NCBI GenBank assembly: GCA_036924285.1
Contig: JAYKYS010000014.1
Span: forward strand, 11,594,001-11,658,000
Length of the DNA: 64,000 bases
Direction of reading: 5' to 3'
Source: Asterella californica
Lineage: Eukaryota > Streptophyta > Marchantiopsida > Marchantiales > Aytoniaceae
In this document: piece after piece, positions 992 through 64,000 of the stretch
Position numbering within the stretch: the first letter of the stretch is position 1
Layout: each line of letters opens with the position of its first letter
The notes under the pieces: generated by a model
Told to the model about the DNA's origin: nothing
Database searches by the model: none
What the model saw: the letters and a program-made list of their open reading frames with translations, nothing else
Translations under genes and position numbers: made by a program

Positions 992-1058
992 AATTTTCAT
1001 GGATTACAATTTGTAAGTTTATCAAACAACAAACATAATCTTCTATTATTCTGTTCAG

Positions 1059-1928
1059 ATGTCTAAAGATTTGTCTGAATTTAAAAAATGTGAAGATTTT
1101 GTATATACTCCAGGAGATTGTATGTTTGATTCGATACAATATTTATTGCATCATAAATCTTCTACCGCATCTTTACGAAATCAAACTCAAAATGAACTTT
1201 ATAATATCTACTCAAGAGCTAGAGATACACATGATTCATTAATATTATCTTATTTCATGGAAGATGAATTGAGAGTGTCACATCGTGTCGAATCTGTAGA
1301 TGAATATATAACCAAAGTTGGTAAAATGGCAAAAGAAGGTGGTGCGTGGGGTGATTCTTTATGTCTCTTAGCTTTATCCTCCATACTACAAAAAATTATA
1401 CACATCTACAGTTCTACTTCTGGAAAGAATATAATTCAATTTCCAAACAACAACTCGTATCATGTTACTTTCAATCTTCTATATGATGATAATGAAGGTA
1501 GTTCCGGTCATTACGAACCAATCGTATTGATTTGTGATGAATTTCTTACTGAGAAATGGGAGTATATAGTGAAACAACTGCAAGATTTACGATTAATTCA
1601 TCTAAATGTACCAATAGTACAATTAATACGTAAATTTATAAGTAAAAATCCTATTTATAAGAACGACTTAAACACTATTCAAACTAAAGTTTATAAACTA
1701 GGTATAGATAAACTAAATCTCCAAAAGACCAAAGTAAACCATCCTTTGCAAGATATTGACTCTCACCAATTAAACATTCGATATTCGGAACTCTTATTAT
1801 TCTATCAAAGATATCCGTATTTATCCATAAGAGATGTCATAAAGAATTTCATACAATCTCATAAACAATATGAGATACAACTCTTTAGAATGAAAAAAAC
1901 ACTTTCTGACAAAATAAAACAATACTGA
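1059..1928 (+). CDS. OTU-like cysteine protease of the Helentron
   Basis: An uninterrupted 289-residue frame. Residues 14-26 hold the OTU nucleophile motif (FVYTPGDCMFDS, catalytic Cys about 21). A GGAWGD block follows near residue 95, and the catalytic His lies in SSGHYEPIVL (His about 151). OTU proteases cleave ubiquitin or ubiquitin-like linkages; in Helentrons their role is unproven, with polyprotein processing or host deubiquitination suggested. The C-terminal 120 residues are Lys/Ile-rich and unassigned. It lies 3 bp before the next Helentron frame in a different reading frame, so the two may once have been one polyprotein. The ATG used comes just before conserved sequence; an upstream exon joined through the donor-like sites in the 193-bp repeats cannot be excluded. 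Confidence 0.82.
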   Translation: MSKDLSEFKKCEDFVYTPGDCMFDSIQYLLHHKSSTASLRNQTQNELYNIYSRARDTHDSLILSYFMEDELRVSHRVESVDEYITKVGKMAKEGGAWGDSLCLLALSSILQKIIHIYSSTSGKNIIQFPNNNSYHVTFNLLYDDNEGSSGHYEPIVLICDEFLTEKWEYIVKQLQDLRLIHLNVPIVQLIRKFISKNPIYKNDLNTIQTKVYKLGIDKLNLQKTKVNHPLQDIDSHQLNIRYSELLLFYQRYPYLSIRDVIKNFIQSHKQYEIQLFRMKKTLSDKIKQY

Positions 1929-1931
1929 ATA

Positions 1932-2738
1932 ATGAATAAGATTAATTCAATTAACACATCTAACTGTACTTCTAAAAAACAAAAAAAACTATCATTAGAA
2001 GAAAAACACATAGATACTTACTCCAAGTCTTTACTCGACGTTCCATATCATTCGTGTGACATATGCTATAAACGTGATTTCTTGAAGAATTTAAAATATA
2101 TCAATCAAATTCATTACGATTTCATTTGCTCTTATGCTGAAACAACTAACATAACTTTCGAACAGCTTAAAGATAATACAAGGATTTGTTTGATGTGTAT
2201 GCGGTATATAAACGATAACAAAATACCTCTTTTCTTTGAGATATCTAGAGTTTACAATAACAATACGATACCATATCTTGAATGTTTAAACGAAGTCGAA
2301 GAAAGATTGATCTCACCGCGAGTCATGTTTGGAAACATTCATATTTACAATGGGTTCCAACAATGGCATCTAAGAGGTAGTGTTATCAATATCCCTTCAA
2401 ATACAAACATGGTCCAAACACATTTACCACGTATGGCTGATGAAGAAGGTTCTATCGTAGTGGAAATCAAAAGAAAACTGACTCTAAAACCAATCTATAA
2501 AACAAGCTACGTTCGACCTAACAAAGTAATGCGAGCTTTACATTATCTTATTGATACACACTTATACAAACATCACAATATCGAGCTGAATGAAAATTGG
2601 ATTCACACTTTCAACGACAATTATTCCAAAGAACAACTCCGATTCGATGAAGTAGAAACCATCGAAACAAATAACGAGTTTGATGAAAATAATCACGAAC
2701 CAACACAAACACTGATACATTTATTGCAAACTTTTTAG
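1932..2738 (+). pseudogene. Helentron N-terminal zinc-finger region, frameshifted
   Basis: A 268-residue frame. Residues about 42-95 have paired cysteines (CDICYKRDF and ICLMCMRYI) suggesting a treble-clef or similar zinc-binding unit. This is followed by a block around EERLISPRVMFGNIHIYNGFQ that resembles the conserved segment preceding Rep in many Helitron/Helentron proteins. The frame ends at TAG 2736-2738, but the same stretch read in the frame of the next segment continues smoothly into LDPEMIYANEKYKL. A single-base indel near 2700 therefore split one protein. No catalytic role is known; DNA binding is likely. Confidence 0.72.
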
Positions 2739-2746
2739 ATCCTGAA

Positions 2747-4585
2747 ATGATTTACGCCAATGAAAAGTATAAACTTACTGTGGCTCCTAGCGAGGGATAT
2801 CACCCTTTGAGTTTATTCAAAGATGAATTTTGTGAAGAGACTAATTTTCTTAGTTTGTTTTTTGGCCACGGAAGAAACAAACAAATCGTTTCGAAGATGT
2901 CATATCACAAACTAGCTTCATGGGAATTATTATACAAAACTCATAAATTATTTAGACATTTACCAAACATCTTTTTCAAGATGTCTAAAATCTGCATCGA
3001 GAAAATTCTAAGCATTTCTTGGATTCGAGTAAGGAAAAGTAAACTACAAGGCTCTCCTTTGACAGCGAAACAAGTCAAGGATGACAATTTCAAACAACAA
3101 CTTCTTATATCAGATCAAGCTTTTCCTTGTTTGTCCCAATTACGATTCACTCCAGACTATTACCAAGTCGTTAAGCGAAATCTTTTCGCGATGATCCGAC
3201 AATTAGGAAAACCTACATTTTTCATTACTTTAACTGCGAACGAAAAAAACTGGAAACCGTTGATGAACACCTTATTCAAATTGAACAAAATGGATAACCA
3301 TATACCATTGCCGGACGATGAAGAAACCTTAAGTTCTTCACAAAAACAACAACTTCTTAGACAAGATCCTGTCACATGTGCACGATATTACGAACATAGA
3401 TCACAATGTTTCCGTAAGCTTATTCAACATAACCAATTAATTTTAAGAAATGTATCCGATTTCTTTTTTGTAACTGAATTTCAAAGCAGAGGCAGTCCAC
3501 ATGATCACGGGCTACTGTGGATAAAAAATGCTCCTGTTTTCAAGATAGATCCTGATGAATCAATAACAACTTTCATAGACGAATACATTTCTACTGATCA
3601 TCACTTATTGAGCAAAGAGATGATCAAATGTCAAACTCATCGTCACACAAATACTTGCTATAAGAAAAGATCTTCATCTTCTTGTCGATTTTGATTTCCA
3701 TGGCATCCCATGTCGAAAACAACAATATTATATCCTTTAACTAACGATGAACTTGATGATGAAACGACGAGAGATATAAAGCTTAAATCTATTAGAATTT
3801 CAAACATCATTTCTTCTTTCAAAATTGGATTGGATATGAACTTCGATCAGTATCTTCAACATTTAGAACTTACATATGAAACTTACTTATTAGCTTTAAG
3901 ATATTCTTTATCAAAACCTTCTATATATCTCAAACGTCATCCAATAGATATTTACATTAATTCTTTTCCAAAAAATGCTGCTTCCATTTGGCAAGCCAAC
4001 ACATATTGTCAATACGTGTTAGATCCACATGCTGCGGCACAATATTGTACCTCATATCTAACAAAAGTAGACAATACAATAACGAATGAGATGAAGAAAA
4101 TTAACAATAAATGTACCGAGGAAAATCAAGAAGTAACCACACGGATAAAAAAGTTAGGCAATGCATTCTTGAATTCCAGACAAGTTTCGGCTCAATTAGC
4201 CATCTATACAATCTTAAAATTACCTTTGTATCATGCTTCTCGTTCTTTTCAATTCATAGACACTAGTAGTCCATCCGATCGAACGTTCCTCCTCAAAAGT
4301 TCCAAACAACTATCTTCTGAAGATGATTCTTCAACAAACATAGGATTGCCATCCATCATAGATAAGTATGCACGACGTCCACAACATCTGCAAACAAATT
4401 CAATGGCTTTGATAGAATTCGTAGCCAAGTTTAATACTTCACAAAATAGAAGATTGAGAAAATCTAAAATCGTTCGATGGATATGTTTCGACCAATATAA
4501 ACAACCGGAAGACTATTTCAGAGAGCAAGTGCTGTTATATGTCCCTTTTCTTTACGACGAGAACAACATTAAAGATTCAATTTAA
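2747..4585 (+). pseudogene. Helentron Rep (HUH/Y2 replication initiator), broken
   Basis: Two stretches of one frame, 2747-3694 and 3710-4585, are separated only by a TGA at 3692-3694. The first holds FFITLTANEKNW and the metal-binding HUH motif RGSPHDHGLLW (His 252 and His 254 of that stretch). The second holds IWQANTYCQYVLDPHAAAQYCTSYLTK-type sequence with the two catalytic tyrosines in the Y-x3-Y arrangement (Tyr 112 and Tyr 116), diagnostic of Helitron Y2 Reps. Family role: nicking and covalent 5' attachment during rolling-circle transposition. A second in-frame TAA at 4583-4585 separates Rep from the helicase, after which the frame continues open. Both stops fit single C-to-T changes, but that is inference. 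The catalytic residues themselves are preserved. Confidence 0.88.
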
Positions 4586-4627
4586 ACATGGGAAAATACA
4601 TATAATAGACATAAATCACATATTCTA

Positions 4628-6306
4628 TTGTTACAAAATTTATATACTTTTAAATACAATACGGTCGAAGTAAACGAGGATTGGAAGAAATTTGAGGATG
4701 AGGTGGCAGAACTTGAAGAAATAAGAGAATATCATAACGAACAAAGCGAACCGGAACAGGATTCAAGCAATTTGGATTTGGACAATGTCGACTTAATGCA
4801 ACGAACTACTCTTAAATGTACTTCTAAGACTACGAATCGTGAAGAAACCTTCCCGATCAAAGATCCTCTAATACCAATAGAATCATTTTGTGTTGAGTTA
4901 CGTCAATTGAACAAACAACAAAAGCTAATCTTCAATGATTGTATGTATAAAAAAAACACTTTCCACATGAGCCAATCCATTTATTTCTTACGGGAGAAGC
5001 AGGAACCGGTAAAACATTCACCTTATTAAAAATTATACAAGGATTGTCATGGATATACGAAGATGATAAATCTAGGTTTAATGGTCCCGAACAAATAAAA
5101 GTTTTGAAGATAGCATACACAGGACGAGCTGCATATAACATACAAGGAATGACTATTCATAGTGCCTTAGCGATCCCTAAAGACTCTTACGATATAAACG
5201 TGTCAAAATTAAGTCCAGATCGATTGGATAAATACATCAAATATTATAGTCAATTAAGATTATTAGTGATAGACGAAATCTCTCTGGTGGGTGCAAGAAT
5301 GTTCTCTTACATAAACCAAAGACTATAACAAATAACTCAAAATTTCAACCTTCCATTCGGTGGCATAGATATAATTGTTTGCGGTGATTTTTATCAAGTA
5401 CAACCTGTTCAAGATTCATGGATTTTTCAGTCTTCTAATATTTATTCTCAAAATATTGCCACTAACATATGGACTTCATTTTTCAAACACTATGAACTGA
5501 CTCAACCTATGCGTCAGACCAATACAGATTTTATACAAATTTTGAATCGTATTCGCATCAACCAACAAACATCTTCTGATCTACATTATTTAAATTCAAC
5601 TTATCAAAAAATGTATTCTAAACCAAATGATATACCTCATTTATTTTACACTAACAAAGATACGAAACTTCATAATCAACATGTATTTAGTATAACTGAT
5701 GGGAATGAATATTTATTCCATTCAAAATATCATTTTTCTTCTGTTATATCGAAAAGATTTAAAATATCAATAAATCCAAAAGATACAGCTGGATTACACA
5801 GTATTTTATCTCTAAAAGTTACCATGTTAGTAGAATTATGTTATAATTATAACACACGAGATGGACTCACCAATGGAAGCGATGGGATTTTCATGTCCAC
5901 AACAACATATAACGATGATCAAATCATTTGGATCCAATTTTTTGATCCAAAGATTGGAACACAAACGAGGAACAAACAAAAACATTTTTTTTCCATTAAC
6001 ATTAATCCATCTTGGACGCCCATTATGAGAATTTCACAACAATTTCCAATCAATAAATATACCAGAGAACATAAGATCACTAGAACACAATTCCATGTTC
6101 AACAAGCATCTGCACGAACTATCCACAGATCGCAAGGATTGACCATGCATCAAGTAGCTTTCAGTCCTAAGCACATAAATCGACACGGATTGACATACAC
6201 TGCATTATCCAGAGTGAAAAATCCTAAGCACTTACATATATTACAATCGATCGAGCATCGTCATATAGTTGTAGACAGCAGAGTCACTCTCAAATGGAAC
6301 GGTTGA
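4628..6306 (+). pseudogene. Helentron Pif1-like helicase, broken
   Basis: After an acidic linker (4628-4900) comes LNKQQKLIFNDC. The frame then shifts within a run of eight A residues (4949-4956), after which the other frame reads GEAGTGKTF, the Walker A motif, at about 4993-5016. Walker B follows as LLVIDEISLVGARMF (about 5257-5300). An in-frame TAA at 5326-5328 interrupts the chain. It then continues through FGGIDIIVCGDFYQVQPV (motif III), TQPMRQT, and the C-terminal motifs ARTIHRSQGLT and YTALSRVK (5509-6300). Order and spacing match the SF1B Pif1/RecD helicase of Helitrons, a 5'-to-3' DNA unwinding enzyme. One frameshift plus one stop make this copy inactive as annotated. Confidence 0.88.
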
Positions 6307-9915: not shown

Positions 9916-11512
<1,597 letters not shown>

Positions 11513-51089: not shown

Positions 51090-51450
51090 GGTTGCTCGAG
51101 AGTAGTCCTCACACCTAAAATTTATTTGAGCCAATTTCATCGAGCCACCTTCGAGATATGGAGTGATCTGTACCCACGTGTAGGCAGTGGAGACTGTTTT
51201 AGTGAATCTGGGTCACTTATTCGTGAGCTTCGTTGATATCCATAAGCCAATGACCTTGAAATTCACCATGCACGTGCCCCAACTGAAAACAGTCCTTGTG
51301 AAAAAAGAATTAATGCATTTTGAATCTAAATGGCCGAGTTATCGCATTTTTGGTGCCGCATCCTTGAGGACTTAGCCGCTGGAATGAATCGGGTTGTGGT
51401 ATAATTTTCGCGGACCAAAGAGGAGGACGGGGCTGCCGTTCCCCAGAAGT
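51090..51450 (+). other. Probable rDNA spacer upstream of a Pol I promoter
   Basis: Non-coding sequence that abuts the left end of G2. Because G2 carries a GAAGT target duplication, this flank was joined before insertion to the sequence at 59151, which is a Pol I initiator. It is therefore inferred to be ribosomal intergenic spacer containing the upstream promoter region. Confidence 0.5.
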
Positions 51451-52793
51451 TGTCATATAGACCCGTCGTCATTCCCGCGGGTTCACCTGACCTGGGCGAA
51501 GGAGGTAAAGTGTCGAAGGCTAACTCTAAAACCAAACCCCGTTCTTGATTCCAGGTCGGCTATGATTAAATGGCCCAAAAGGCACTCGGAGGCACCGGAA
51601 GGGGACAGCCAGGCCACGGTATAGGTTAAGTCCCGGGAGGGGAAAGTAGCCACTGGGATGTAGGTCGAGGAAGGAGTAGAGTGACCCCGGGTCAAACCAG
51701 AGGGTCCACGCGGACCGGAGTAGAGTGGAGGACTTGCTACAGTCAGGTGAGGTGCGCCGGCGGGTACCCCTATGAAGCCGCCTGAAGGAAGGCCAACCGC
51801 CACCGTGTGGCGGTCACCGGTTGGTGCGCATAAGGACACACGAGCGGAGGACGGGAAGTAGAGTCGGAGGGAGGGGCGGACAACAATGATTGTAAGGACA
51901 GGGCCCCCGGACGGGACGGCCAGCTCGCCGAGACCCCTGGAGGTGTGGCGGCACCACGCATGCGGGCAACTGCGGCGGACGGTTCGCCTCCCACCTCGGA
52001 GGGAAGTAGAGCTGGGGGATCTTGCCGGGCCCGCCTTCATCTGCCGCGAGTTCCCATCCAACGGGAACTCCCGGAAGCTCGCCGCTACTGTCCTCGCGAC
52101 CCCTGCTCAGGCCCACGTAGCGCCTGCTTACTGGCCGCCGACTTTGGGGATCCGACGCTCCACTCCGAAGGAAGAGACAGTCCGACTAGCGCGCACAGGT
52201 GCTGGGGTATAAAAGCCCGGGGCATAGGGCACTGTGCGGACAGAGTATGAGGCCGGAACGGGTGTTAGAAGCAGAGCCAGCCACGTAGAGAGATCACCGC
52301 GAGGATAGGGACCACCGCGGAGTTAAGTGTATACGAGCGTTTCCTCGAGGAAACCTCGTAGCCCCGTCGCTGATAGTTTTGAGGTGACAGTAGAGCCTCG
52401 ACTAGTGCTAGCTTGAGATAGAGACTAGTGGGTCGGGATTTTAGTGCAGCGTTAGGGTCTACCGTGGTCTAATTGAGATTTGGCACCTGACCGGAGCAGC
52501 CGCGCCTACCCTACCCAGGGTGCGCCAATGTATGAGCCCGCATTGAAGTAAAGAGGGTCGCCGTTGTCAAATTGAGGTAGTGTGAGAGTGTGTGTGTGAG
52601 CAAGCTCATGGGGCAAGTGCGTTGCCCTCGATCTGACCGAGGAGAGTGAGTAGCCGGAGAGGAAGGGAGGACTGAGTGAGTATCGCCGGGTCGATTGCGT
52701 GCAGGAGTAAAGCCGGGTTGCCGATTTGTGAATTTCTGTGTTCTTCCGTCAGGGGCACCCGCGACGTCGCCTTACGACCCGGGATCCACGTCA
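51451..52793 (+). repeat. G2 5' LTR (1343 bp)
   Basis: Direct repeat of 57808-59150 with TG...CA ends. A TATAAAAG string at about 52207 may be the element's own promoter. Open frames inside, such as the 192-codon minus-strand frame, occur in both LTRs by homology and are not genes. Confidence 0.97.
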
Positions 52794-52795
52794 AA

Positions 52796-52807
52796 TGGTA
52801 TCAGAGC
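52796..52807 (+). other. G2 primer binding site (initiator tRNA-Met)
   Basis: TGGTATCAGAGC, the standard primer site of plant retrotransposons, starts two bases after the LTR. Confidence 0.95.
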
Positions 52808-52937
52808 TCTGATCGTGAGCCTTGCCACTAGCACGCACGAGTCGAATCGCTGCAGGAGTCACAGTCGATCGAACCACGACGCCTTGACAGTCGCACGGGA
52901 TCATCGCACAGTTGCGCGAGGTTGGGGAAACGAGCCA

Positions 52938-54420
52938 ATGCCACCGCGACGCGGAAGAGTACAGTCCGGAGCAGGGCCGTCTCGACCGCCACCCTCGAAC
53001 CCACCGTTTCCAGTACCTGTCGCGTCCTAGACGCCTTCGGATTATGGACCCCAACCCGCCGCCTCCGGAGCCTCGAGTGCCGGGTCTTCTGCAAGTCCGG
53101 CCGAACCGCCACCCGGGGGTCCAACGTCGGCGACGCCGCCGACAAGTGCTGAAGTCCGGCAGACACTCCAAGACGTGGAGGTGTTCCTGCGAAACCTGCG
53201 AGCCAGGTTTGGAGTTGCCGGAACTCCCCCAGCACCGTCCCCCGATCCGACTGCACCGGCACCGGCCCCGACGCCTGCACAAACGACCGCGCCCGCGGAT
53301 CAGCCCGCGGGAGCAGCGGACCTGGAGCCGCAGCGCGCTGGTCTGAGCACACTTGGCGCAGGTGGCCCCGATGGAGGATCCAGCAACTCGAGCAGTTCGA
53401 GTCCGGGTGAGCCTAGCACAGACAGCGGTCTGAGTGGCCGACGATCAAGACGGAGAAAACGCCACCGAAGAGCGCCATCCCCCGAAAAGCCACAAGAATA
53501 CTACGGGGAGCCCTCGCTCCCCAAGTTCGAACTTTGGGTGGCAGCAATGGAGAATTACTTGAGCCACTACTCCAAACGAGGCCAGTTCGCCTATGCGGTG
53601 AGTCGACTTAGGGGAGACGCATTGAAGTGGCTTACCAACTATCAGAGAGAGCGGGTCAATGAGGGGCGTCCCGAGCTCAATACTTGGGAGGAGCTTCGGG
53701 ACCGACTCAGAACCTACTTGGTTCCCCGCAACGAATACAGTCATTACCGCCAGGAGATGGACGGATTGAAGCAAACGGGAGGCATCCGGGAGTATAGTCA
53801 GAAGTTCGGCCACTTGTGGAATGCCTTGGCGCTTACTGACGCCAACGAAAAGAAGTACCTCTTCCACCGGGGTCTCCAAGACTAGTACAGTTACGAGATG
53901 ACCACGTTTGGGTGGGACAAGCCCCTGGAGGATGTATGCGCCCACCTGGAACTTCTTGAGGCCGACCGACAGAAAGGCAGAACCGAGGAGAAGCCGAGAG
54001 AGTCTCGACCCTTTCAGAAGTTCCGCGGAGGTTCCAACAGTAAGGTCCGGAGGTCCTACAACCCTGTCGGAGGTCCGGGTGGACTGCGACCGCCGCCATC
54101 CCAAGCGCCCGGCCGGGGACCATCGATCGGAGGACAGCGCCCACCTGAGCGCCGACAGCAAGGAGGAGGAGCCGCCCGCGGGAACCAGAGGCCAAGGAGA
54201 GGACAGGGCGGAGGACCCCCTAGGGGCCCGCCTAGACCGAATGCACCGTTCGCAGCTGCCGCGCCCCGAGGAGATGGCTGCTACCACTGCGGACGACCAG
54301 GACACTTCACGAGGGAGTGCCCAGCCCGGATGGGTGCGTCTAACATGAGGGCGGCCGTTGCTGAGGAACCCGCCTTGGAGCATCCCGAGTTCGAGGTGAA
54401 CCATGCCGAGGCGTCAGCCC
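52938..54420 (+). pseudogene. G2 gag with zinc knuckle, two TAG stops
   Basis: Begins at ATG 52938 (MPPRRGRVQSGAGPSRPPP), a Pro/Ala-rich leader interrupted by TAG at 53028-53030. The capsid-like core lies at 53500-53880 (LPKFELWVAAMENYLSHYS, YAVSRLRGDALKWLTNY, TWEELRDRLRTYLVPRNE, IREYSQKFGHLWNAL). TAG at 53883-53885 falls right after LFHRGLQD, and the frame continues YSYEMTTFGWDKPLEDV. A CCHC knuckle CYHCGRPGHFTREC lies at 54279-54320. The Arg/Gly-rich linker before the knuckle is typical. Gag packages element RNA. Apart from the two TAGs the reading frame is intact. Confidence 0.88.
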
Positions 54421-55904
54421 AGGAGAACCCTTCGAATGCAGAAAGAGGTAACACTGAACAGCCAGCATGTTTGCCTTGGGTACAAGTTGGGATAAAAGGC
54501 CAGGATGTTCGCATGCTAGTAGACACGGAGGCGGATGTGAGTGTATTGTCTTCTCGCAAAGTACTTGAGTTGCATTTGATTCCGAAGAAGCTTGCCGCAC
54601 CTCTAGTCGTTAGGTTTGTACAAGGGACATCCCAGGTCACCCACATGATAACTCAGTTGTCAGTGGAGTGTGCCGGCATCACCCGAGCCCACGACTTCTT
54701 GGTCATGCCGTTAGCTAAAACCGACGGGATTCTATCCTGGGCTTGGTTAGGTCAGAACCATGCATGTATCGACTTGACCAGAGGCCACCTCTGGTTGAAG
54801 GACCCTAGAGGAGTCGACTATCACACCAGCCTGGAGATAGATCCAAAACCCCAGAAGGCTACCGAACCGCAATACCGGTCCTGTCGGGTGGCATACATGA
54901 TATGTACCGCCCGACAGTTTAAGAAGTCTATGAAGGGAGCCGAGGAGGCCTGGATGGTCCTCCCGGACAAAACCCTGGAGGAGGTGGACGAGGAAGACAG
55001 AGTGTCTCAACTCCCCATCCGTAAAGAGATGCAGCAACTTTTAACTAGGTATTCACACCTTCTCCCGGAGAAACTTCCCAACGTATTACCATCGAGACGG
55101 GCGATCGATCACAAGATCGACCTTATCCCCGGCTCCGCCCCACCAGTTGGGCGGTGCCGCAGGATGCCCCTCAACCTGCTGCAAGAACTTAAGGCGCAGT
55201 TGGGGGAAATGGTGGAACAAGGGATTCTGAGGCCGAGTTGTTCTCCTTATGCTACCTCGATCATGTTCGTTTCCAAGAAGGAGGGTACCCTCAGATTATG
55301 TGGGGACTACTACGCCTTAAACAAAGTTACTATCAAAAATAAGTATCCAATTCCATTGATGGATGAGACCATGGACCGTTTGGTGAAAGGCCGGTTCTTC
55401 ACCAAGCTGGACCTGCGCTCGAGGTACCACCAGATCCGAATAGCGGAAGGGAAGAGTGCTTCCAAGAGAGCTTTCGAGTGGAAGATGCCCCAACAGAAAG
55501 CCTTTGAGACACTTAAGAAGGTCCTTACGGAAGCACCTGTCCTAGTGCTCCCCGACTTGGGAAAACCGTTCGAGATACACACGGATGCATCCAAATTAGC
55601 CATAGGGGGAGTTCTCATTCAAGGGGATCATCCCGTGGCATTTGAGAGCCATCGATTGTCCGAATAGGAAGCCCGATGGGAGACGCACGAACAGGAGATG
55701 TTGGCAGTCATCTGGTGTCTCAAACGGTGGGAGCACTACCTCCTACCGAGTGAGGTTACGGTGGTGACGGACAACATCTCGACCACATACTTCCAAACAA
55801 AACCAAAACTTTCCCTAAAGCAACAACGTTGGCAACTTGAACTCTCGAGGTACAACTTAACATAGAAGTACCAGAAGGGTAAGGAGAATGCCCCCGCCGA
55901 TGCC
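54421..55904 (+). pseudogene. G2 protease, truncated reverse transcriptase and RNase H
   Basis: In frame with gag. The protease site reads LVDTEADVSVLSS (54522 on), with Glu in place of the Gly of DTGA. Reverse transcriptase starts normally (MQQLLTRYSHLLPEKLP, VGRCRRMPLNLLQELK, LRLCGDYYALNKVTIKNKYP, FFTKLDLRSRYHQIRIAE, to about 55445). It then jumps within about 15 residues to WKMPQQKAFETLKKVLTEAP, which in relatives lies after the thumb. Roughly 160-180 residues including the catalytic YxDD are absent without loss of frame. RNase H follows (FEIHTDASKLAIGGVL, TAG at 55665-55667, then EMLAVIWCLKRWEHYL, TAG at 55863-55865, then KYQKGKENAPADALSR). The copy could not reverse-transcribe itself. 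Confidence 0.9.
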
Positions 55905-57447
55905 TTGTCCCGACAAGTTCTGGCCTTGACATCGGCTCCGCAATCCAACCTAGTGGAGTTCGTCAGAAGGGCTACGGCATTGGACCCCCAAGCTAGCCAA
56001 TGGGCGAACCAGAACAGTTCCGATCCAAGGATGAGACACCTAAGTCGCCGGGAGGGGTGCTGGTTCTTTAAACAGAACCGACTCTACATTCCGACCGGAC
56101 CCCTGAGAGCTCGAGTCCTCTACGAGGAACACGATGCGCCCACGGCTAGTCATGGAGGGCAAGCCCGAACACTGCACCGGGTGCGCCAAAAGTACTACTG
56201 GCCGACCCTAAGTGCAGACGTACGCCGATACGTTGAGAGCTGCCTGGTCTGCCAGCAGACCAGGCCCGACACCCAACGTCCAGCAGGGCTACTCCAACCA
56301 TTACCGGTTCCCGAGAACCTTTGGGAAAGCTTGACGATGGATTTTGTCCCACAGCTACCCTTATCCAATGGGTATGACTGTATATTAACAGTGGTCGACC
56401 GACTAAGCAAGATGGCACACTTTATTCCATGTACCACCATAATCTCCGCCTCAGCCGTGGCCAAACTCTTTGTGTCCCATGTCTTTAAATTCCACGGGTT
56501 ACTTAAGGAGATTATAGCCGACAACGATTTCCGTTTCGCCAATGAGTTTTGGACCTCCTTGTTTTCCAACCTAGGAACCAAGTTGAAGTTCACCGCCGCA
56601 AACCGATGGTCAGAGTGAGCGAGTGAACCAAGTCATTGAGCAGGGATTACGCAACTACATGGTTAGGGATCAGACAGATTGGTCTGATCATCTAGACTTG
56701 GTCGAATTTGCCTATAACGACGTCTTGCACTCCGCCACTGGTTATAGGTCATTTGAGCTCGTATACCAGGGGAATCAGTTCCCACGGTCCCCTGCTAGTT
56801 TTCAGCTCCACTCCCCTGAATTCGAGAATGCCATCCGCGAGGCACCTCTGGATGTGGCTGAGTTTATTGGACGGAGATCCTACGTCCTACACTTGGCCAA
56901 ACAAAACATCCTGAGGGCACAGGTAAGGTATACGAAATACGCCAACCAGAAGAGGCGAAATGTCCAACTGGAGGTGGGAGACCGGGTGTGGCTGAAGACC
57001 AAACCCTATGCTATCCCACTAGGTATGACCGGGAAATTCATTCCCCGGTGGACGGGACCTTTCGAGGTACTGCGTAGAATTACATCGGTGAGTTACCAAC
57101 TCGCATTTCCGGCGAGCATGCAAGGGTACCACCCCATCATCCATGTCTCGAACCTTAAAAAGTTCGTAGCCGATGATTTGCAACTCCCAGGGAGGGTCCA
57201 GAAGTGGACCCCTGCCTTAGAGCACCTCCCCATGTTATCCGACATGAGGGTACGGAGGGTGCTAGATCAGAGGACCTTACCTGGTCCAAGCACCGAACCC
57301 GAGCGGGTCGAGTTTCTGGTAGAATGGAAAGGCCGGGGCTTGATCGCACAGGCTTGGGTCACCCTAGCCGAGATCCCTTGGGTGCTGATAGCGTGCCCCT
57401 ACCAGGTGTTTATCCGGGGACGGGCCCCGCAAGTAGCCCCAACCTGA
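55905..57447 (+). pseudogene. G2 integrase with chromodomain, frameshifted
   Basis: The zinc-binding domain is EEHDAPTASHGGQARTLHR ... CLVCQQTRP (56125-56270). The catalytic core has MDFVPQLPLSNGYDCIL (first Asp) and IIADNDFRFANEFW (second Asp). Immediately before the block containing the catalytic Glu (ERVNQVIEQGL) the sequence loses about ten bases and changes frame at about 56605, so the frame ends at TGA 56616-56618. The second segment (56623-57447) carries the GPY/F-like module (TGKFIPRWTGPFEVLRRI) and a C-terminal chromodomain (RVEFLVEWKGRG ... AWVTLAEIPW). Chromodomains bind modified histones and direct integration in chromoviruses. The reading stops at TGA after QVAPT. Confidence 0.9.
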
Positions 57448-57807
57448 TGCCCGACTTGAGAGGAGAAGTGTGGTAGGATCGGCGAGAGGCTCGAAACCCT
57501 CAGAGACCACTGCACTGCGCCAGGATTTGCAACCTCAGTGCACATAGGTGCAGAGGGTCTTCTAAGGCCCAGTCAACTCCCACAGGTTTGAATCAAGACG
57601 GTAAGGAGGAAAGAATGGAAAAGCCGGCTGATCTAGCCGAGCTTAAGGTAACTAAATTACCTAGTGCACTCCAAAAAGCTTGTCTCGGAAGATCTCTCCT
57701 TCGGTAGAAAAGGATCGAGCACACCGAGTGGGGGACTCTTGAGAAAAAGGTTCAGGACCGTAGGGAGTCCAGGTGTGAGGACACACCTCTTCGTTTGTTT
57801 GGCTGTA
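57448..57807 (+). other. G2 3' untranslated region
   Basis: Non-coding sequence between the chromodomain stop and the 3' LTR. Purine-rich strings such as GAGAAAAAGG (about 57742) are present but not adjacent to the LTR, so the polypurine tract is not assigned. Confidence 0.6.
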
Positions 57808-59150
57808 TGTCATATAGATCCGTCGTCATTCCCGCGGGTTCACCTGACCTGGGCGGAGGAGGTAAAGTGTCGAAGGCTAACCCTAAAACCAAACCCCGTT
57901 CTTGATTCCAGGTCGGCTATGATTAAATGGCCCAAAAGGCACTCGGAGGCACCGGAAGGGGACAGCCAGGCCACGGTATAGGTTAAGTCCCGGGAGGGGA
58001 AAGTAGCCACTAGGATGTAGGTCGAGGAAGGAGTAGAGTGACCCCGGGTCAAACCAGAGGGTCCACGCGGACCGGAGTAGAGTGGAGGACTTGCTACAGT
58101 CAGGCGAGGTGTGCCGGCGGGTACCCCTATGAAGCCGCCTGAAGGAAGGCCAACCGCCACCGTGTGGCGGCCATCGGTTGGTGCGCATAAGGACACACGA
58201 GCGGAGGACGGGAAGTAGAGTCGGAGGGAGGGGCGGACAGCAATGATTGTAAAGACAGGGCCTCCGGACGAGACGGCCAGCTCGCCGAGACCCCTAGAGG
58301 TGTGACGGCGCCACGCATGCGGGCAACCGCGGCGGACGGTTCGCCTCCCACCTCGGAGGGAAGTAGAGCAGGGGGATCTTGCCAGGCCCGCCTTCATCTG
58401 CCGCGAGTTCCCATCCAACGGGAACTCGCAGAAGCTCGCCGCTACTGTCCTCGCGACCCCTGCTCAGGCTCACGTAGCGCCTGCTTACTGGCCGCCGACT
58501 TTGGGGATCCGACGCTCCACTCCGAAGGAAGAGACAGTCCGGCTAGCGCGCACAGGTGCTGGGGTATAAAAGCCCCGGGCATAGGGCACTGTGCGGACAG
58601 AGTATGAGGCCGGAACGGGTGTTAGAAGCAGAGCCAGCCACGTAGAGAGATCACCGCGAGGGTAGGGACCACCGCGGAGTTAAGTGTATACGAGCGTTTC
58701 CTCGAGGAAACCTCGTAGCCCCGTCGCTGACAGTTTTGAGGTGACAGTAGAGCCTCGACTAGTGCTAGCTTGAGATAGAGACTAGTGGGTCGGGATTTTA
58801 GTGCAGCGTTAGGGTCTACCGTGGTCTAATTGAGATTTGGCACCTGACCGGAGCAGCCGCGCCTACCCTACCCAGGGTGCGCCAATGTATGAGCCCGCAT
58901 TGAAGTAAAGAGGGTCGCCGTTGTCAAATTGAGGTAGTGTGAGAGTGTGTGTGTGAGCAAGCTCATGGGGCAAGTGCGTTGCCCTCGATCTGACCGAGGA
59001 GAGTGAGTAGCCGGAGAGGAAGGGAGGACTGAGTGAGTATCGCCGGGTCGATTGCGTGCAGGAGTAAAGCCGGGTTGCCGATTTGTGAATTTCTGTGTTC
59101 TTCCGCCAGGGGCACCCGCGACGCCGCCTTACGACCCGGGATCCACGTCA
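57808..59150 (+). repeat. G2 3' LTR (1343 bp)
   Basis: Pairs with 51451-52793. It is the same length, with about 27 substitutions by eye, of which about 24 are transitions. It ends CCACGTCA and is followed by the GAAGT target duplication. Confidence 0.97.
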
Positions 59151-59168
59151 GAAGTATATATAAGGGAA
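59151..59168 (+). promoter_or_regulatory. Plant-type RNA polymerase I initiator, copy 1
   Basis: GAAGTATATATAAGGGAAGG contains TATATAAGGG, matching the plant rRNA transcription start consensus TATATA(A/G)GGG. The first five bases are the G2 target duplication, so G2 sits at the promoter itself, just before the TATA-like core. Initiation is known in plants to occur at the purine in this motif; activity here is untested. Confidence 0.75.
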
Positions 59169-59582
59169 GGGGGTTCCGTCAGCGAGCCACCCCCGGCGGG
59201 TGCGGCTGTCGCGTGCCTCGTAACCCGTGGGAGATGCATTGAAGGCTGTATCCTGTCTAGGCTCGTGTCTCTACGTGAGATCCGAGGGAGCCTGACAATA
59301 AGGACTGTTAGACCCGTTGCAAGGGGTGAGTCCTCGATGGCCTTGGGGTTGACCATGCGGTCAACTCCCACGCCTCGGGAGTCTGCCTTGATCTCGTTTC
59401 CCGAGTATGCAATGATTCGCACAGTGTTCTGGTAGTCTTTCGCGGTCTCTTTTTCTCGAGTATGCGTGTTCTGGGAGTCTGTCACGGTCTCCTTTTCCTG
59501 AGTATGCGTGTTCCCAGAGTCTGACGCGTTTGGATTTTCTTCGGAATGTTCCTCTGTGGTTCATTTAGGCATCTGTGTTTGC
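59169..59582 (+). other. rDNA spacer fragment with 42-bp subrepeats
   Basis: GC-rich, non-coding sequence after the initiator. A 42-bp unit starting GTGTTCTGG(T/G)AGTCT recurs at 59424 and 59466 and in part at 59508; a weaker unit precedes it. Such subrepeats are usual in ribosomal spacers. It ends where gypsy integrase sequence (G3) begins, at about 59583. Confidence 0.6.
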
Positions 59583-59920
59583 AGGGGTACCACCTCATCA
59601 TCTACGTATCCAATCTGAAGAAATTTGTGGAGGATGACTTGCAACTCCCGGGGAGGATACAGAAGTGGACTCCGTTCCTCGAGCATCTACCCCTGTTGTC
59701 AGACATGCGTATCAAGAGAGTGCTCGACCAGAGGACATTGCCTGGTCACAACTCACAACCAGAGAGGATAGAGCTGTTGGTAGAGTGGGAAGGTCAAGGG
59801 CTGACAGCCCAGACCTGGATTACCTTGGCCGAGATCCCATGGGTGCTGATTGCTAGGCCCTACCAGATATCCATCCGAGGAAGAGCCCCACAAGTAGCTC
59901 ACCCCGCAGCCCGAACTTGA
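59583..59920 (+). pseudogene. G3 integrase C-terminus and chromodomain
   Basis: GYHLIIYVSNLKKFVEDDLQLPG, LLSDMRIKRVLDQRTLPG and RIELLVEWEGQGLTAQTWITLAEIPW align without gaps to the end of the G2 integrase (57120-57440). Roughly three quarters of residues look identical, so the two elements belong to one family but are distinct lineages. The fragment is open to TGA at 59918-59920. It lacks all catalytic residues. The upstream codons of this open frame (59546-59582) are spacer, not element. Confidence 0.88.
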
Positions 59921-60251
59921 GGAGGAAGGTGAGGAGGATACGGCGTGAGGTCATGAGCTTTCAGGGACCACTGCAATGTGCGGGGGTTGGCCGCCTTACA
60001 GCACACATAGGTGCAGAAAGACCCCTGAGATCCGGTCGATCTCTTCAGGCTCCCTCCAAGAGGGTGAGGGAAAATTAATTACTGTCGACCAACAATTGAC
60101 TTAAGGATAAATACTATCCCAAAGTGCACTGTAAAACTTGTCTCTGTGGAGTCCCCTAAACCAGAAGGGTGAGCCAGAGTAAGGGAATGCCAATTCTCAT
60201 TTGAGAGAAGATGCAGGTGTGAGGACACACCTCCTTTAACGTTGCGGAGTG

Positions 60252-61546
60252 TGTCATAAGGGACCCGTCATCTATCCACGGGCAAGTTCCCCTTGGACGA
60301 AGAAGGTAATGGTCAAACTCTAACCCCTACCCGCCTTGTATGTTGGTTCTATTAGGTCGGCTGTGATTAAACGTAAATCGTAAGGAGACCCCGGACCGGA
60401 TTTGAGCTAGGCCACGGCTGAAGAATTAGGTAGGCAGGGTCAATTCAGGACAAATCGGAAGGAGTAAGGGCCATTTTTGTGCCTTAGGCATTTTCGACCT
60501 CCAGGTGACCCCCTTGGTCACACCGTGGTCAGTCCGCACGAGACGCGTGGCAAGGAGAAGCAGCCTGAGAAGCCAGAGCCAAAGGCAAGGCCGGAAGGCC
60601 CACGGCCTTATGCAGCCGCGGGCGCGGAAGCCCAGGCGTCGTCACCTGGCGGACGCTCACAGGGCCGGCATAGGCACACATGCGGGAGAGCAAGCGGAGG
60701 ACGTGGATGCGGACGGAAGGAGTACGGGGATCCGAAGACAGTCGCTGATTGGCCGAGACCTCCGCATGGGAAAGCACCACACGCGCAGAGGCGGCGCGGA
60801 AGCCGAAGCGGCTTCCTCCACCTCGACCCGTGTGGCGGTTTGCCTCCCACGAGGAGGGAAGTAGAGTTGGACGACGAGCCGGGCCTGCCTCCCAATGCCA
60901 GCCCGTCCCCCGACCCTTGGATTCCCAGCCAATGGGCACGAGGGAAACCTCGCCACTACCCTCAACCCGGATCCTACTCAAGCCCAGTGGCAGACGGTGA
61001 TTGGTCGGGACCAGTAACCCTGCTCCGAGTGGCCGAGGAGGGTCGGACGAGGAGTGGGGCCAGCCCACATAATAATGCCTCGCATGGAGCCCTGTGTAGA
61101 CACAACAACCGAGATCAGAACGGGAGAGAATCAGGTAGAGACACGTAGGAGAGGAAGCACCCCGCGAAGATAGGGACCTGTTAGTGGCTGGTGGGTTGTG
61201 ATTTTAGAGATCGACCATGGCCAGCCGTGGCCCGTAGGTAGTTCAGACTAAGTCCGAGGTAGCCACGGATCTCTCTTCGGGGACATTGCATTGTATGAGC
61301 CGTTGTCTATTGCAGTAAAGCCTCGCCTAAGCCCGAATTGGAGTCAGTGCTGAGAATTGGAGTAGGTCGTGATAGTGAGGGGACAATTGCGATGCCTCCG
61401 GTCCTAAGTAAGGGTCGAGCATGATCGACGACTGTGTGTGCTTACCCGAGAGCTCGAGTAGGAAGAAAGAGGGCATGAAGTTTGATTGATTTGGGTTTTT
61501 CCGTCATAGACCCGAGATTCATAGCCGCGACCCGGGAAGTATTACA
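60252..61546 (+). repeat. G3 3' LTR (about 1295 bp)
   Basis: Start and end are set by TG...CA and by alignment to the G2 LTR ends (TGTCATA..., ...GACCCGGGA...CA). The interior keeps scattered blocks in common with the G2 LTR, for example GTAGAGTTGG around 60860 and CCACGTAG/ACACGTAGG-type sequence. Open frames inside it (such as 60477-61148) are treated as non-genic. Confidence 0.8.
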
Positions 61547-61564
61547 GAAGTATATATGAGGGGG
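61547..61564 (+). promoter_or_regulatory. Plant-type RNA polymerase I initiator, copy 2
   Basis: GAAGTATATATGAGGGGG directly follows the G3 LTR and shares its first 11 bases with copy 1. It lies about 1.23 kb upstream of the 18S rRNA start, a normal length for a plant external transcribed spacer, so this is the better candidate for the gene promoter. Confidence 0.75.
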
Positions 61565-62788
61565 TGCTCCTCCTCGGGGTACCACGAGACCGAAGTCACA
61601 CATCTGGCAGAATACCACGGTAAGGGACTCCACGGGGTCATCGTTGTTCGGTGGACTGTCCATTCTATGATGCAGGCAGAAGTTGAGTGGTAGTGCCAGC
61701 GACGCAAGTTGCGGTGCGACTCCCCAAAGGGTACCGACAGTGCGATGTGGAGCTTGTGCCATGCGTCGTGACGCATCCCGATATTTCTCTTCGGTTGAAA
61801 TGAGAGTTCTTCACGGTGGGATTAACCTCGCCGGAACCATCCTTTGCACATCAGGCTCGATTCATGTCGTGGTCGGTCTCTTGGCGACCCAAGGGGAAGG
61901 GCGCCGCACCGTGTCGATGGTTCTCAAAGGGAGTGTGAGATTGCGAGCGACCGCCTTCTCGTCTCCTCGCAGGGCTTGTATCGATACAGGAAGGTTGTAA
62001 CGCCGACGGGCATTTAGACGGTTGGAAGCGAGACGGACCTCCGTTGCCGATACTAATTCTCCCGGTTGACTCGTCTTCGAGTGTCTCAGTTGTGTGCGAG
62101 AAGTCGATTCGCTGTTCTGTGGTCGTAGAAAACAAGTAACGGAAAAGTGTTTCTCCGGATGGTGTTTGTAAACCTGGGAGCGGATCCGTTCGGGGGTTGT
62201 CAAAGACTTCCGCGTGGTTTCGTGTGCCGGGCAGCCCGCGGGGTTAAGTGTGTAATATTGCTCTGATCGCCTGCGAGGACAGGCGTTTTTGTGGGAAGGA
62301 AAAGGTCTGAGAGTTGCTCTATTTCTAACGGAAAGACGACATTTTTTTCCGGGAGAGGTTCGAGGAACGCTCAACTCGGCTCACACCCGAGGGAAAGCGT
62401 GGTTCCGTATTTCACGCGGGCCTCAACCGAGATCAGACAGACGGAGTTGAAGAAGGTTTGGGGCGTCGATATCTTTCATCCGCTGTATTCTTACTTCCGT
62501 TTTGTCGACACCTCTCCTGATCCGAGTGCGGTCTTCAAGGGATTCCATTTCCTTACAAAGAGGGCCCTCTTTCGTGTTCGCGTTATGATGCGAGCAAGAG
62601 CTTCGGATACTCACCATCTCCTTGAATGTCGCGGTCTAAGTTGGCATTCGCATAGGGATAAATGTTTCACTCGGTGACTTTCTTGTCTCCCTTTTCCCAA
62701 AGGGAGACTGCGGATTCACTTGGGTTGCTGATCGGACCATTTATTTGGTCCGATCAGCAACCTGTCGGTGAGTTTGTGGAGAGTCTGC
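61565..62788 (+). other. Probable 5' external transcribed spacer of rRNA
   Basis: GC-rich non-coding sequence between the initiator motif and the mature 18S 5' end, in the right order and orientation. It ends with a perfect hairpin 26 bases before the 18S start. Identification rests on its position. Confidence 0.6.
62723..62762 (+). repeat. Perfect 17-bp hairpin just upstream of 18S
   Basis: GGTTGCTGATCGGACCA, loop TTTATT, then the exact reverse complement. It lies in the presumed transcribed spacer, so it would form in the pre-rRNA close to the 18S 5' processing site. Confidence 0.92.
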
Positions 62789-62843
62789 TACCTGGTTGAT
62801 CCTGCCAGTAGTCATATGCTTGTCTCAAAGATTAAGCCATGCA
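62789..62843 (+). rRNA. 18S rRNA 5' end, first 55 bases, interrupted
   Basis: TACCTGGTTGATCCTGCCAG and the following bases through ATTAAGCCATGCA match the universally conserved start of plant 18S rRNA without a mismatch that I can see. After CCATGCA the expected TGTGTAAGTATG is absent and unrelated pyrimidine-rich sequence begins. The gene copy cannot yield a normal small-subunit rRNA unless the insert is removed. The rest of 18S is not in this window. Confidence 0.95.
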
Positions 62844-63403
62844 GGAAATGGAAACTTCCTTCCTTCATTTATCTGTTTGCTTCTGCAGTTCACTGATTTT
62901 CCCCTGTTTCATCACTCTACACTTGACTCCTTACAACTTTACTTACTTCTGCAATTCATTTTTGTTTCCATTTTTCGTTTCCACCTTTTCCCTTGTTCTC
63001 TAAACCTCGAAACGTCTGTCTCTCGATTCCGTCTCCGACAGGCCTTTTCAACGCCGCGTCCGCTTACCCTGTCTTTGGTTAAAGTTGAGGCGAGTCCTGG
63101 ACTGATGAGTGCGATACTGCGCGGCGTTGGCTCCCTATTTTCTGTTTGTTTCTGTTCTCGTTTTCATCTTTTTGCTCTTTTCGTTCGTATTACACTCGCT
63201 CTTCTCGCTTTTGTCCTGTCTCATCATTCATTCCGTGCAGTTACCCTTTTTTTCTGCTCGGCGCCTTTAGGCTCTCTTCTGCGTGTGGGGTTTCCTCTCC
63301 CTTCCCCCCGTTGTTACCGGTTAATCTGCCTTCGGGCTGGCCTTTGGCCTTTATCAGTAAAACTCCTTACATCGGTGCGTCAGTGCCGGTATTCAGGTCA
63401 AAA
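62844..63403 (+). mobile_element. Insertion in 18S rDNA with A-rich 3' end and target duplication
   Basis: About 560 bp of pyrimidine-rich sequence unrelated to rRNA. The 3' end runs into an A tract, after which AAAGATTAAGCCATGCA (63404-63420) repeats the last 17 bases of the interrupted 18S fragment. An A tail plus a target duplication of this length is the signature of target-primed reverse transcription (non-LTR element, SINE or processed RNA). No reverse transcriptase is encoded, so it is either a 5'-truncated LINE or a SINE-like passenger. Frames running through it have no domain. Confidence 0.7.
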
Positions 63404-63420
63404 AAAGATTAAGCCATGCA
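63404..63420 (+). repeat. 18S target repeat, second copy
   Basis: AAAGATTAAGCCATGCA duplicates 62827-62843 and is followed by GG and then a third, longer copy. Confidence 0.9.
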
Positions 63421-63422
63421 GG

Positions 63423-63445
63423 TCTCAAAGATTAAGCCATGCATG
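63423..63445 (+). repeat. 18S target repeat, third copy
   Basis: TCTCAAAGATTAAGCCATGC and the following ATG repeat 18S positions about 35-57. This copy reaches two bases further into 18S (CCATGCATG) than the first two before diverging. Confidence 0.9.
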
Positions 63446-64000
63446 CAGAAAAGGCAGCACGGAAGGCTGCCGGAGCTCCTCCCTCTGGATAACGCTGCCT
63501 TGTGTGCTTCTGGCTATGGCGATCTCTCCTGTTTTTGATCCTATATGAGTTCCTCTTGATTTGCCTTGATTTTGGATCGCACTGCCACAATTCGATTGGA
63601 TTTCTATCATTTGCGGGCCACTTCGCCGTTTCTGCGGCGCACCTCGTTCTACTTTCTACTTCCTTCGCGCGTTGCGCCATCTTCTTCGCCGCGCTTCTTT
63701 CTTCCACTCGTTGTTCCTTCGTTATTTTTACCAACGTCTTCCAAAGCGGCTCTCAACGGCTGTCATGCGGCTGTCTTTCCTTCGCAGTTACTCACCCATT
63801 CGTGTTCTTACGTTCATCTGTCTTCTTCCATTTCTCTCCAACGATCGAAGATCTACTCCATCGTTGTTGTTTTTCGTTCATTCTTTTGTTCATCTCTATT
63901 CACTCACTGCATTTTTGTTCACTTGCGTAATTATTTGTTCTAATCCACGAACTCCTGTTGGATTGCTGTTGCTTCTCCCTTCCTACCATCCACTTGCAGG
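63446..64000 (+). other. Second foreign segment after the 18S target, runs off the window
   Basis: The sequence after the third target copy again is not 18S. It starts CAGAAAAGGCAGCACGGAAG and becomes pyrimidine-rich like the first insertion, with strings such as TTTTTCGTTCATTCTTTTG. Open frames (63502-63930, 63566-63943) show no domain. It may be a second insertion at nearly the same position; its end is beyond the window. Confidence 0.5.

Follow-up and report, generated by a model that had tools for sequence, protein, structure and literature searches.

Ty3/gypsy elements of several lineages inserted at one base of a presumed RNA polymerase I promoter block

Elements and rDNA features of the window

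The window analysed, a stretch of DNA of 64,000 nucleotides, was found to contain two Ty3/gypsy elements (G2 and G3), two copies of a putative rDNA promoter, namely a spacer promoter (P1) and a gene-proximal promoter (P2), and the start of a presumed 18S rRNA gene (Table 1). G2 has the features of a Ty3/gypsy element, these being LTRs with TG...CA termini, a primer-binding site (which we take to be of the plant initiator-tRNA-Met type), protease, reverse transcriptase and RNase H ahead of the integrase, and a 5-bp target-site duplication. Its gag-pol region is interrupted by stops and a frame change, and its LTRs differ at 27 positions (K2P 0.0205). The downstream GAAGT copy is followed by ATATATAAGGG.

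Table 1. Features of the window. C1 and C34 are loci outside the window; X is an abundant chromovirus.
Feature	Position	Strand	Basis or remark
P1 (promoter copy 1), half lying 5' of the insertion base (positions about -60 to -1)	51386..51445	+	Block recurs in C1 P1/P2 and X LTRs
G2 target-site duplication GAAGT, 5' copy	51446..51450	+	
G2, whole element	51451..59150	+	GAAGT flanking each end
G2 5' LTR	51451..52793	+	98.0% pairwise identity to 3' LTR across 1343 bp
G2 primer-binding site TGGTATCAGAGC	52796..52807	+	
G2 gag-pol remains (gag, zinc knuckle, protease, RT, RNase H, integrase, SH3-like domain)	53031..57447	+	Pfam, four open pieces
G2 3' LTR	57808..59150	+	LTR pair comparison
Target GAAGTATATATAAGGG, GAAGT 3' copy (59151-59155) and putative P1 start-site core	59151..59166	+	
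P1-downstream spacer	59167..59580	+	Uninterrupted join to upstream flank in empty C1 copy
G3 polyprotein 3' end with apparently divergent chromodomain, and sequence up to LTR	59580..60251	+	
G3 3' LTR, ending ...AAGTATTACA	60252..61546	+	Start from related C34 LTR; end from motif
Target GAAGTATATATGAGGG, putative start-site core of P2 (promoter copy 2)	61547..61562	+	
Leader from P2 to 18S	61563..62788	+	First ~506 bp ~97% identical to C1 and C34, different thereafter
First ~55 nt of presumed 18S rRNA	62789..62843	+	Interrupted afterwards

G3 is retained as its 3' part only, starting at approximately 59580, with its 5' junction absent from the window. It shares ~75% DNA identity with G2 and 73% protein identity with an element at locus C1. 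The G3 LTR ends directly before GAAGTATATATGAGGGGG, at a base identical to that at which G2 stops. This coincidence and the GAAGT duplication at G2 had been pointed out in an earlier reading of the letters alone (the sequence-only reading), and both were confirmed from the window, the claim proving to be an understatement. The same reading had described G2 and G3 as related chromodomain gypsy elements. Their gypsy nature stands, while the chromodomain appears to be very divergent, the Chromo profile scoring 13.7 bits in G3 (below the cut-off of 25.1) and giving no match in G2, compared with 60.1 bits in X. The C-terminal tail of the integrase is conserved among relatives at 73-88% protein identity, and its structure was predicted, at low confidence (mean pLDDT 43), to follow a strand-strand-strand-helix order (block pLDDT 52-62).

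The 5' sequence of the 18S gene, read in the window only, begins ~1.23 kb past the P2 copy, as the sequence-only reading had placed it, and gives way after ~55 nt to a foreign insert. Its identity as 18S is presumed from its sequence. At C1 and C34 the sequence beyond P2 is given as N, and the idea that these loci lack 18S was therefore dropped. Rfam identified no rRNA in the window (with its ~55 nt of 18S), in L073 (mostly N) or in 20 probes of C34 (six all N).

At C1, P1 was found to be empty, with window positions 59149-59567 aligning to this copy at 92.4% identity (433 bp). C1 P2 is filled by an element other than G2 or G3, with identical 1403-bp LTRs and GAAGT at each side. Duplication of one LTR-bearing segment, which the sequence-only reading had named as an alternative origin of the P1/P2 pair, was ruled out: the LTR families at the two window promoters differ, and the explanation fails because C1 P1 is empty while C1 P2 holds a different element.

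The promoter block and element X

The 16-mer GAAGTATATATRAGGG was identified in 2371 exact copies (1184 + 1187) in the 516.7 Mb genome, with none for the reversed control. The idea that this motif marks rDNA specifically was thus rejected, as 18 of the first 20 copies read were found to lie in the LTR of X. The LTR pairs of this element are ~6.5 kb apart, and it seems to carry pol, with an integrase-RNase H frame that includes a chromodomain adjoining X LTRs on the same strand in L029.

The region common to P1, P2 and X extends from -60 to about +16 only (a block of ~75 bp). Outside it, identity of the P1 upstream half to C1 P1/P2 and to the X LTRs drops to background. The prevalence of the block in X LTRs (18/20 sites read, more often than in rDNA) would suit an explanation in which it is a Pol II LTR-type TATA promoter spread by X, pieces of X having come to rest in rDNA spacers. 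However, the rDNA copies P1 and P2 have none of the adjoining LTR sequence in common with X, P2 lies 1.2 kb ahead of 18S, and its core fits the plant Pol I consensus, making a Pol II origin improbable. From its sequence, the block is more readily taken as a putative Pol I core promoter.

Insertion at one base

Seven LTR lineages were found inserted at one base, in at least 11 lineage-by-site cases. In all of these the element is followed by GAAGTATATAT(A/G)AGGG and has the same orientation, and in most it is flanked by GAAGT at each end. The insertion point lies between ...CCCCA and GAAGT, just 5' of the TATATAT(A/G)AGGG core; the 3' LTR adjoins this core in every case read, and GAAGT flanks both ends in nearly all element pairs read. 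Over the terminal 113 bp of the LTRs of six lineages, similarity between lineages was 70-84% with gaps ignored, some pairs scoring no higher than shuffled sequences.

Examination of LTR ends and their flanks, as proposed with the sequence-only reading, was performed with one degenerate pattern, ACCCGGGANNYACGTCA with a non-T base at the 16th following place, without requiring the motif. Among the 82 ends matching this pattern, 46 run into a primer-binding site and 36 were informative: 27 meet the exact 16-mer, one has it with one mismatch, one has its first 8 bases only and seven lie at unrelated sequence elsewhere. The reverse complement of the 16-mer was next to none of the 36. Outside family A, 5/14 informative ends have the exact motif. 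Unrelated flanks, which had been named as evidence against targeting, occur at 7/36 ends, with the majority on the motif; the specificity of insertion is high and not absolute.

The 5' junctions were investigated in a similar manner. A genome-wide search for TCCCCAGAAGT/TGT (the slash marking the junction) gave 58 matches, compared with 2 for the reversed control, and 26 of the 58 were paired with a known 3' junction, among them those of the inserts at C11 and C729. In a first set of 15 predicted junctions, GAAGT/TGTC was found in 12, the junction at C308 lies at the same place with unequal duplications (GAATA/GAAGT), and none was found at C114 and C124. A second set (n=7) yielded one match (C103), with none at C124, C114, C102 (twice), C103 full-length and C308; a third (n=2) yielded none (C11 full-length, C124). 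The junctions of C11 and C102 were located in the genome-wide search. At C729 an insert the size of a solo LTR (1344 bp) has unequal duplications, GAAGT/CAAGT.

Copies of the 16-mer with a non-C base before CA number 169 of the 2371. Among 100 of these 169 matches that were listed, 77 sites were read, and in 25 of them an LTR ends directly against the motif (19 at P2, three at P1 and three in X LTRs), including the two of the window and the C1 site. A random insertion would strike a copy of the 16-mer with a probability of ~2e-6 (2371 sites among ~1.03 billion strand positions), by which chance hits are excluded. Site-specific integration is strongly supported.

The three hits in X LTRs, at C1, C11 (a G2-type element, 8178 bp) and C124, represent three lineages at the same base as in rDNA. 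Since ~75 bp alone are common to X, P1 and P2, the target is the promoter block and not the rDNA array. These hits also bear on the suggestion that a few chance insertions were spread through the array by unequal crossing-over and gene conversion, as has been proposed for TRRT in tomato 18S (PMC2679016). Family A does recur in rDNA units of some 32-33 kb arranged in tandem, and many of its copies are probably one or few insertions multiplied, and the elements at C34 and C168 combine a D-type start with an A-type end. Copying may well account for the copy number of A. For the whole set, with seven lineages at one base, it is very unlikely, as copying confined to the array would hardly bring distinct LTRs to this base in places beyond it.

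The block is left unfilled at most of its exact copies, given the 169 of 2371 noted above. In X, all 18 sites in the sample of the first 20 were uninterrupted, and the 55 sites read with an altered base before the motif comprised 49 uninterrupted, three unclear and three filled. The X counts weigh on whether GAAGTATATAT(A/G)AGGG, or the block around it, is recognised by the integrase complex on DNA directly, with Pol I factors playing no part. The identity of the insertion base and following core across P1, P2 and X, together with X LTR insertions outside the rDNA repeat, is in keeping with direct recognition. The rarity of filled X copies speaks against it, as does Ty3, whose base-exact targeting we understand to be led by factors; on balance, direct recognition is rather unlikely.

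Proposed mechanism

The reading we favour, at a probability of about 0.72, is that the integrase of a Ty3/gypsy lineage inserts at one base in the ~75 bp block and is brought there by Pol I factors. G2, G3 and their relatives would form this one lineage, its integrase placing new copies inside the promoter block, and Pol I, TBP or core-factor proteins bound to the block would recruit the integrase. By analogy with yeast, in which Ty3 and Ty1 rely on Pol III factors, the likeliest route would be a tether between the integrase and initiation factors of Pol I. With less weight, the conserved, altered chromodomain and C-terminal tail may be suggested as the tether. The sequence-only reading had likewise proposed guidance by Pol I; its site-specific component was upheld by the 27/36 ends, the empty C1 P1 and the several lineages, and the part played by Pol I is what we infer. 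Insertion at a fixed distance near a polymerase start site was found across seven lineages, the start presumably being that of Pol I.

A more elaborate and tentative proposal, to which we give somewhat less than even odds, is of a lineage specialised for the pre-initiation complex of Pol I, with X having captured the Pol I core promoter in its LTR and serving as a Pol I-transcribed, dispersed decoy target. The integrase of the lineage would then be anchored to a core-promoter factor of Pol I and would insert at an exact base just 5' of the start.

Comparison with known systems and significance

In the literature searched, no LTR element of the Pol I start-site type was found. For LTR elements, targeted integration has been worked out best in the case of Pol III (Ty1, Ty3). 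Ty3 of budding yeast, also Ty3/gypsy with a 5-bp duplication, inserts at one spot beside the transcription start of Pol III genes, whereas the lineage described here uses a Pol I-type promoter block, in a plant-like host and in a single orientation. R1/R2-type non-LTR elements and Pokey have exact rDNA targets inside rRNA genes; they belong to other element classes with other mechanisms, in contrast to the promoter target here.

For Ty1, a C-terminal segment of the integrase acts as the tether to the polymerase via AC40/AC19, which are shared with Pol I (PMC10050235). Ty1 lands upstream of Pol III genes, unlike the present lineage, and in the same source integrase ChIP at 18S rDNA was non-significant (p 0.77). 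Beon1 (beet), TRRT (tomato) and Monkey (banana) are gypsy chromoviruses of the Galadriel clade in rDNA (PMC3605345, PMC2679016). Beon1 and TRRT lie inside the 18S gene in both orientations, in contrast to the promoter base and single orientation here; Monkey is described as co-localising with rRNA genes, and the spread of TRRT is attributed to duplication. Cassandra has a 5S promoter in its LTR (PMC10853983). X is similar in having an rRNA-gene promoter in its LTR, as judged by sequence, and differs in that its block is of the 45S type and it appears to have pol, Cassandra being a short, non-autonomous element without pol.

With a base-exact target at an rRNA-gene promoter, targeted LTR integration would extend to Pol I and to a plant-like host. 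It would also provide a natural set of several families in which to search for the tether; in one of these, the copy read has identical LTRs. Furthermore, X serves as a natural experiment: its copy of the ~75-bp block lies outside the rDNA repeat and is struck at the same base, narrowing the signal to the block. The insertions split the promoter, leaving an LTR immediately 5' of the presumed rRNA start, and may thereby alter the use of rDNA units.

rDNA context of the insertion sites

The genome searched comprised 516.7 Mb in 773 contigs, with the window corresponding to C43:11594001-11658000. Following spacer sequence, the window was found to carry, in order, a spacer promoter copy (P1), approximately 430 bp of spacer, a gene-proximal promoter copy (P2), a leader of approximately 1.23 kb and the beginning of the 18S gene. 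P1 is split by the Ty3/gypsy LTR retrotransposon G2, and the P1 spacer is separated from the P2 core by a 3' remnant of a second such element, G3. A unit with the promoter pair and spacer recurs at a length of approximately 32-33 kb (C34: 26830 and 59574), and one C34 probe gave two matches on contig C1, 32.1 kb apart. A 5S rRNA gene was identified within the same repeat on C1 (L031) and, since it shares the strand of P1 and P2, this suggests that 5S and 45S genes are linked in the rDNA repeat. Among the window, C1 and C34 loci, 18S was readable in the window only. The block of approximately 75 bp present at the promoter copies is a putative Pol I promoter, because it precedes 18S, occurs at both P1 and P2, and has a core that fits the plant Pol I start consensus.

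The 18S gene is interrupted after approximately 55 nt (window 62844-64000 and stretch L029). Since GATTAAGCCATGCA occurs twice after a run of A and is followed by reading frames matching DUF4283 and, weakly, an endonuclease type, the interruption is apparently due to a non-LTR element at a single 18S position.

Coordinates of features in the window and on other contigs of the genome
Feature	Location	Remarks
Helitron-like helicase, PIF1 and OTU-protease frames	window 1017-6306	
Actin gene pieces	window 9953-11349	minus strand
Spacer, AT-rich in parts	window 32.9-51.4 kb	best matches to C34 probes 92-98% identical
GAAGT flanking G2	window 51446-51450 and 59151-59155	
G2 LTRs	window 51451-52793 and 57808-59150	sharing 98.0% identity along 1343 bp
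G3 LTR end	window 61546	adjoins GAAGTATATATGAGGG
Hairpin	window 62714-62773	near-perfect, immediately 5' of 18S start; microRNA family match weak (35.6 bits, threshold 90)
18S, first ~55 nt	window 62789	
18S interruption	window 62844-64000	with L029
GATTAAGCCATGCA, repeated	window 63407 and 63430	after A run, downstream of broken 18S
5S rRNA gene	C1:7085-7203	
Lineage E in X LTR	C1:51161864	
Lineage B in X LTR	C11:6825139	
Lineage F in X LTR	C124:198828	
Insertions starting with D-type and ending with A-type LTR	C34:18469-26833; C168:18196-26486	
H-type LTR end	C526:10197827	followed by GAAGTATACTTGCAGG

Elements inserted at the target base

The genome has a plant-like look, the primer-binding site of G2 (TGGTATCAGAGC) being of a type known from plants. 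The right flank of G2 reads GAAGTATATATAAGGG; G3 was judged at its right junction only, its left end being lost. On C1, P1 was found to be empty, with both flanks of G2 joined across GAAGTATATATAAGGG (93.6% and 92.4% identity per side), and P2 was filled by another element, with LTRs identical over 1403 bp and with CCCCAGAAGT preceding TGTCATAAGG at its 5' junction and TTACGTCA preceding GAAGTATATATGAGGG at its 3' junction. As the LTR of this element was 71-73% alike to that of G2 over part of its length only and gave no match to that of G3, one base holds three different elements.

Filled sites were searched for as motif copies that follow CA, where CA itself follows any base but C, resulting in 169 places; 77 sites were read among the 100 matches listed. 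LTR ends adjoining the motif accounted for 25 of the 77 (19 at P2, 3 at P1 and 3 in LTRs of X, an abundant chromovirus whose LTR holds a copy of the block), including the two of the window and the C1 site. A further 49 were X LTRs in which the promoter block was intact and a base had changed; the last 3 were X-like and ambiguous.

Seven lineages of LTR end were distinguished, namely A (with variant A'), B (that of G2), C (that of G3), D (with variant D'), E, F and H. Over the terminal 113 bp, lineages A-F were 70-84% identical to one another with gaps ignored, with scores for some pairs no higher than those of shuffles; H was recognised later and judged from its terminal sequence only. Counting each lineage once per context gave ten cases: A at P1 and P2, B at P1 and in X, E at P2 and in X, C, D and H at P2, and F in X. 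An eleventh is D' on C103, which is a separate contig and has a 5' junction of its own. The two cases of A could represent one event spread by conversion. Outside the count of eleven are D' on C102, B on C729 and H on C627, their context being unread or possibly shared.

In a first set of predicted 5' junctions, 12 of 15 read CCCCAGAAGT followed by TGTC. The A-type element at the target base on C308 has GAATA, not GAAGT, as its left duplication copy (CCCCAGAATA followed by TGTC; L085), and no 5' junction was found at the predicted position on C114 and C124; one further 5' junction was seen in L074. A second set yielded one of seven, on C103, at solo-LTR distance from the 3' end. Genome-wide, TCCCCAGAAGTTGT gave 58 matches against 2 in the reversed control, and for 26 of the 58 a known 3' junction lay 1344, 4583 or 7700-8364 bp away; since both junction patterns demand GAAGT or its site, this result concerns pairing and not the frequency of GAAGT duplication, and with an incomplete list of 3' junctions the remaining 32 are neutral. 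One pair represents a G2-type element in an X LTR on C11 (8178 bp), and another, on C729, a 1344-bp insert of one-LTR size with CAAGT as its right duplication copy. The insertions on C34 and C168 that start and end with LTRs of different type perhaps arose by recombination between units.

Site specificity

LTR ends were searched for using ACCCGGGANNYACGTCA, with the motif not required and ends with T as the 16th following base excluded, giving 82 matches (control 0). Of these, 46 lead into a primer-binding site, as 5' LTRs must. Among the other 36, 27 adjoin GAAGTATATAT(A/G)AGGG, one adjoins CAAGTATATATGAGGG, one H-type end (C526) has only the first 8 target bases in common (GAAGTATA), and 7 adjoin unrelated sequence; the latter may be insertions elsewhere, decayed primer-binding regions or chance. 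All 22 ends of families A and A' were on the motif, many in tandem rDNA units, as were 5 of the 14 of other families. None of the 36 was followed by ACTTC, the target reversed, so a single orientation was seen. A search with the exact G2 end gave 4 matches, of which 3 were on the block or a one-mismatch form, the reversed control giving 1 match. Site specificity is strong, not absolute. The sequence-only reading had proposed guided integration from two elements and called for this check of family LTR ends and their flanks; as to site specificity, its finding proved real and stronger than stated.

The promoter block in element X

The motif proved not to be restricted to rDNA, contrary to what had been supposed. 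Copies of GAAGTATATATRAGGG in the genome numbered 1184 + 1187 (reversed control 0), and among the first 20 of these sites read, 18 were in X LTRs, all uninterrupted, with the other two being the empty P1 and filled P2 of C1. X possesses an LTR of approximately 1.13 kb (TGTCGCG...GCGCGAAA) and the primer-binding site AGTGGTATCAGAGCC. Beside its LTRs in L029 lies a reading frame for an integrase whose chromodomain is ordinary (Pfam, 60 bits). Its insertion flanks are varied, e.g. CCCTT on both sides in L016. The promoter block lies mid-LTR, approximately 570 bp from the LTR start (e.g. L011-L028; L029 and L030 immediately to the right of the window).

Thirteen X copies were compared to P1 and P2 in ten-base bins over 170 bp. 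Mean identity, from the target G, was 75-100% at -60 to +9 and 61-80% in the next ten bases. Since it drops to 13-57% elsewhere, P1, P2 and X share a single block of approximately 75 bp and nothing else within the 170 bp compared. X may be driven by Pol I. In principle it is like Cassandra in having an rRNA promoter within its LTR, and unlike it in that the block is of 45S type and a pol gene is apparently present.

Related elements and proposed mechanism

Elements of the Galadriel clade are associated with rRNA genes. In the available portions of the sources, Beon1 of beet is described in 18S with a 5-bp duplication, in both orientations in some species, TRRT of tomato at one site in 18S, its spread being ascribed to duplication, and Monkey as co-localising with banana rRNA genes (PMC3605345, PMC2679016). 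A promoter location is not described for any of the three in these portions (PMC3605345, PMC2679016). The literature covered, at the level of titles and abstract openings and largely without subscription papers, yielded no LTR element with targeting to a Pol I promoter.

Because P1, P2 and X share the block alone, the guide to integration most likely acts through it, and a factor bound to the block would tether the integrase. Alternatively, the integrase complex could read the DNA of the block directly. The base-exact insertion of Ty3 beside start sites is factor-led. A C-terminal segment of the Ty1 integrase binds AC40 and AC19, both shared with Pol I, according to the available portion of the source (PMC10050235). 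Together, these two cases favour a tether over direct reading. In the elements described here, the integrase C-terminus has 73-88% protein identity between three lineages, the integrase chromodomain score is below threshold, and a low-confidence model of the tail has three strands and a helix. Speculatively, this C-terminal tail might serve as the tether. A Pol I tether is the leading candidate explanation for the targeting of these elements to the promoter block.
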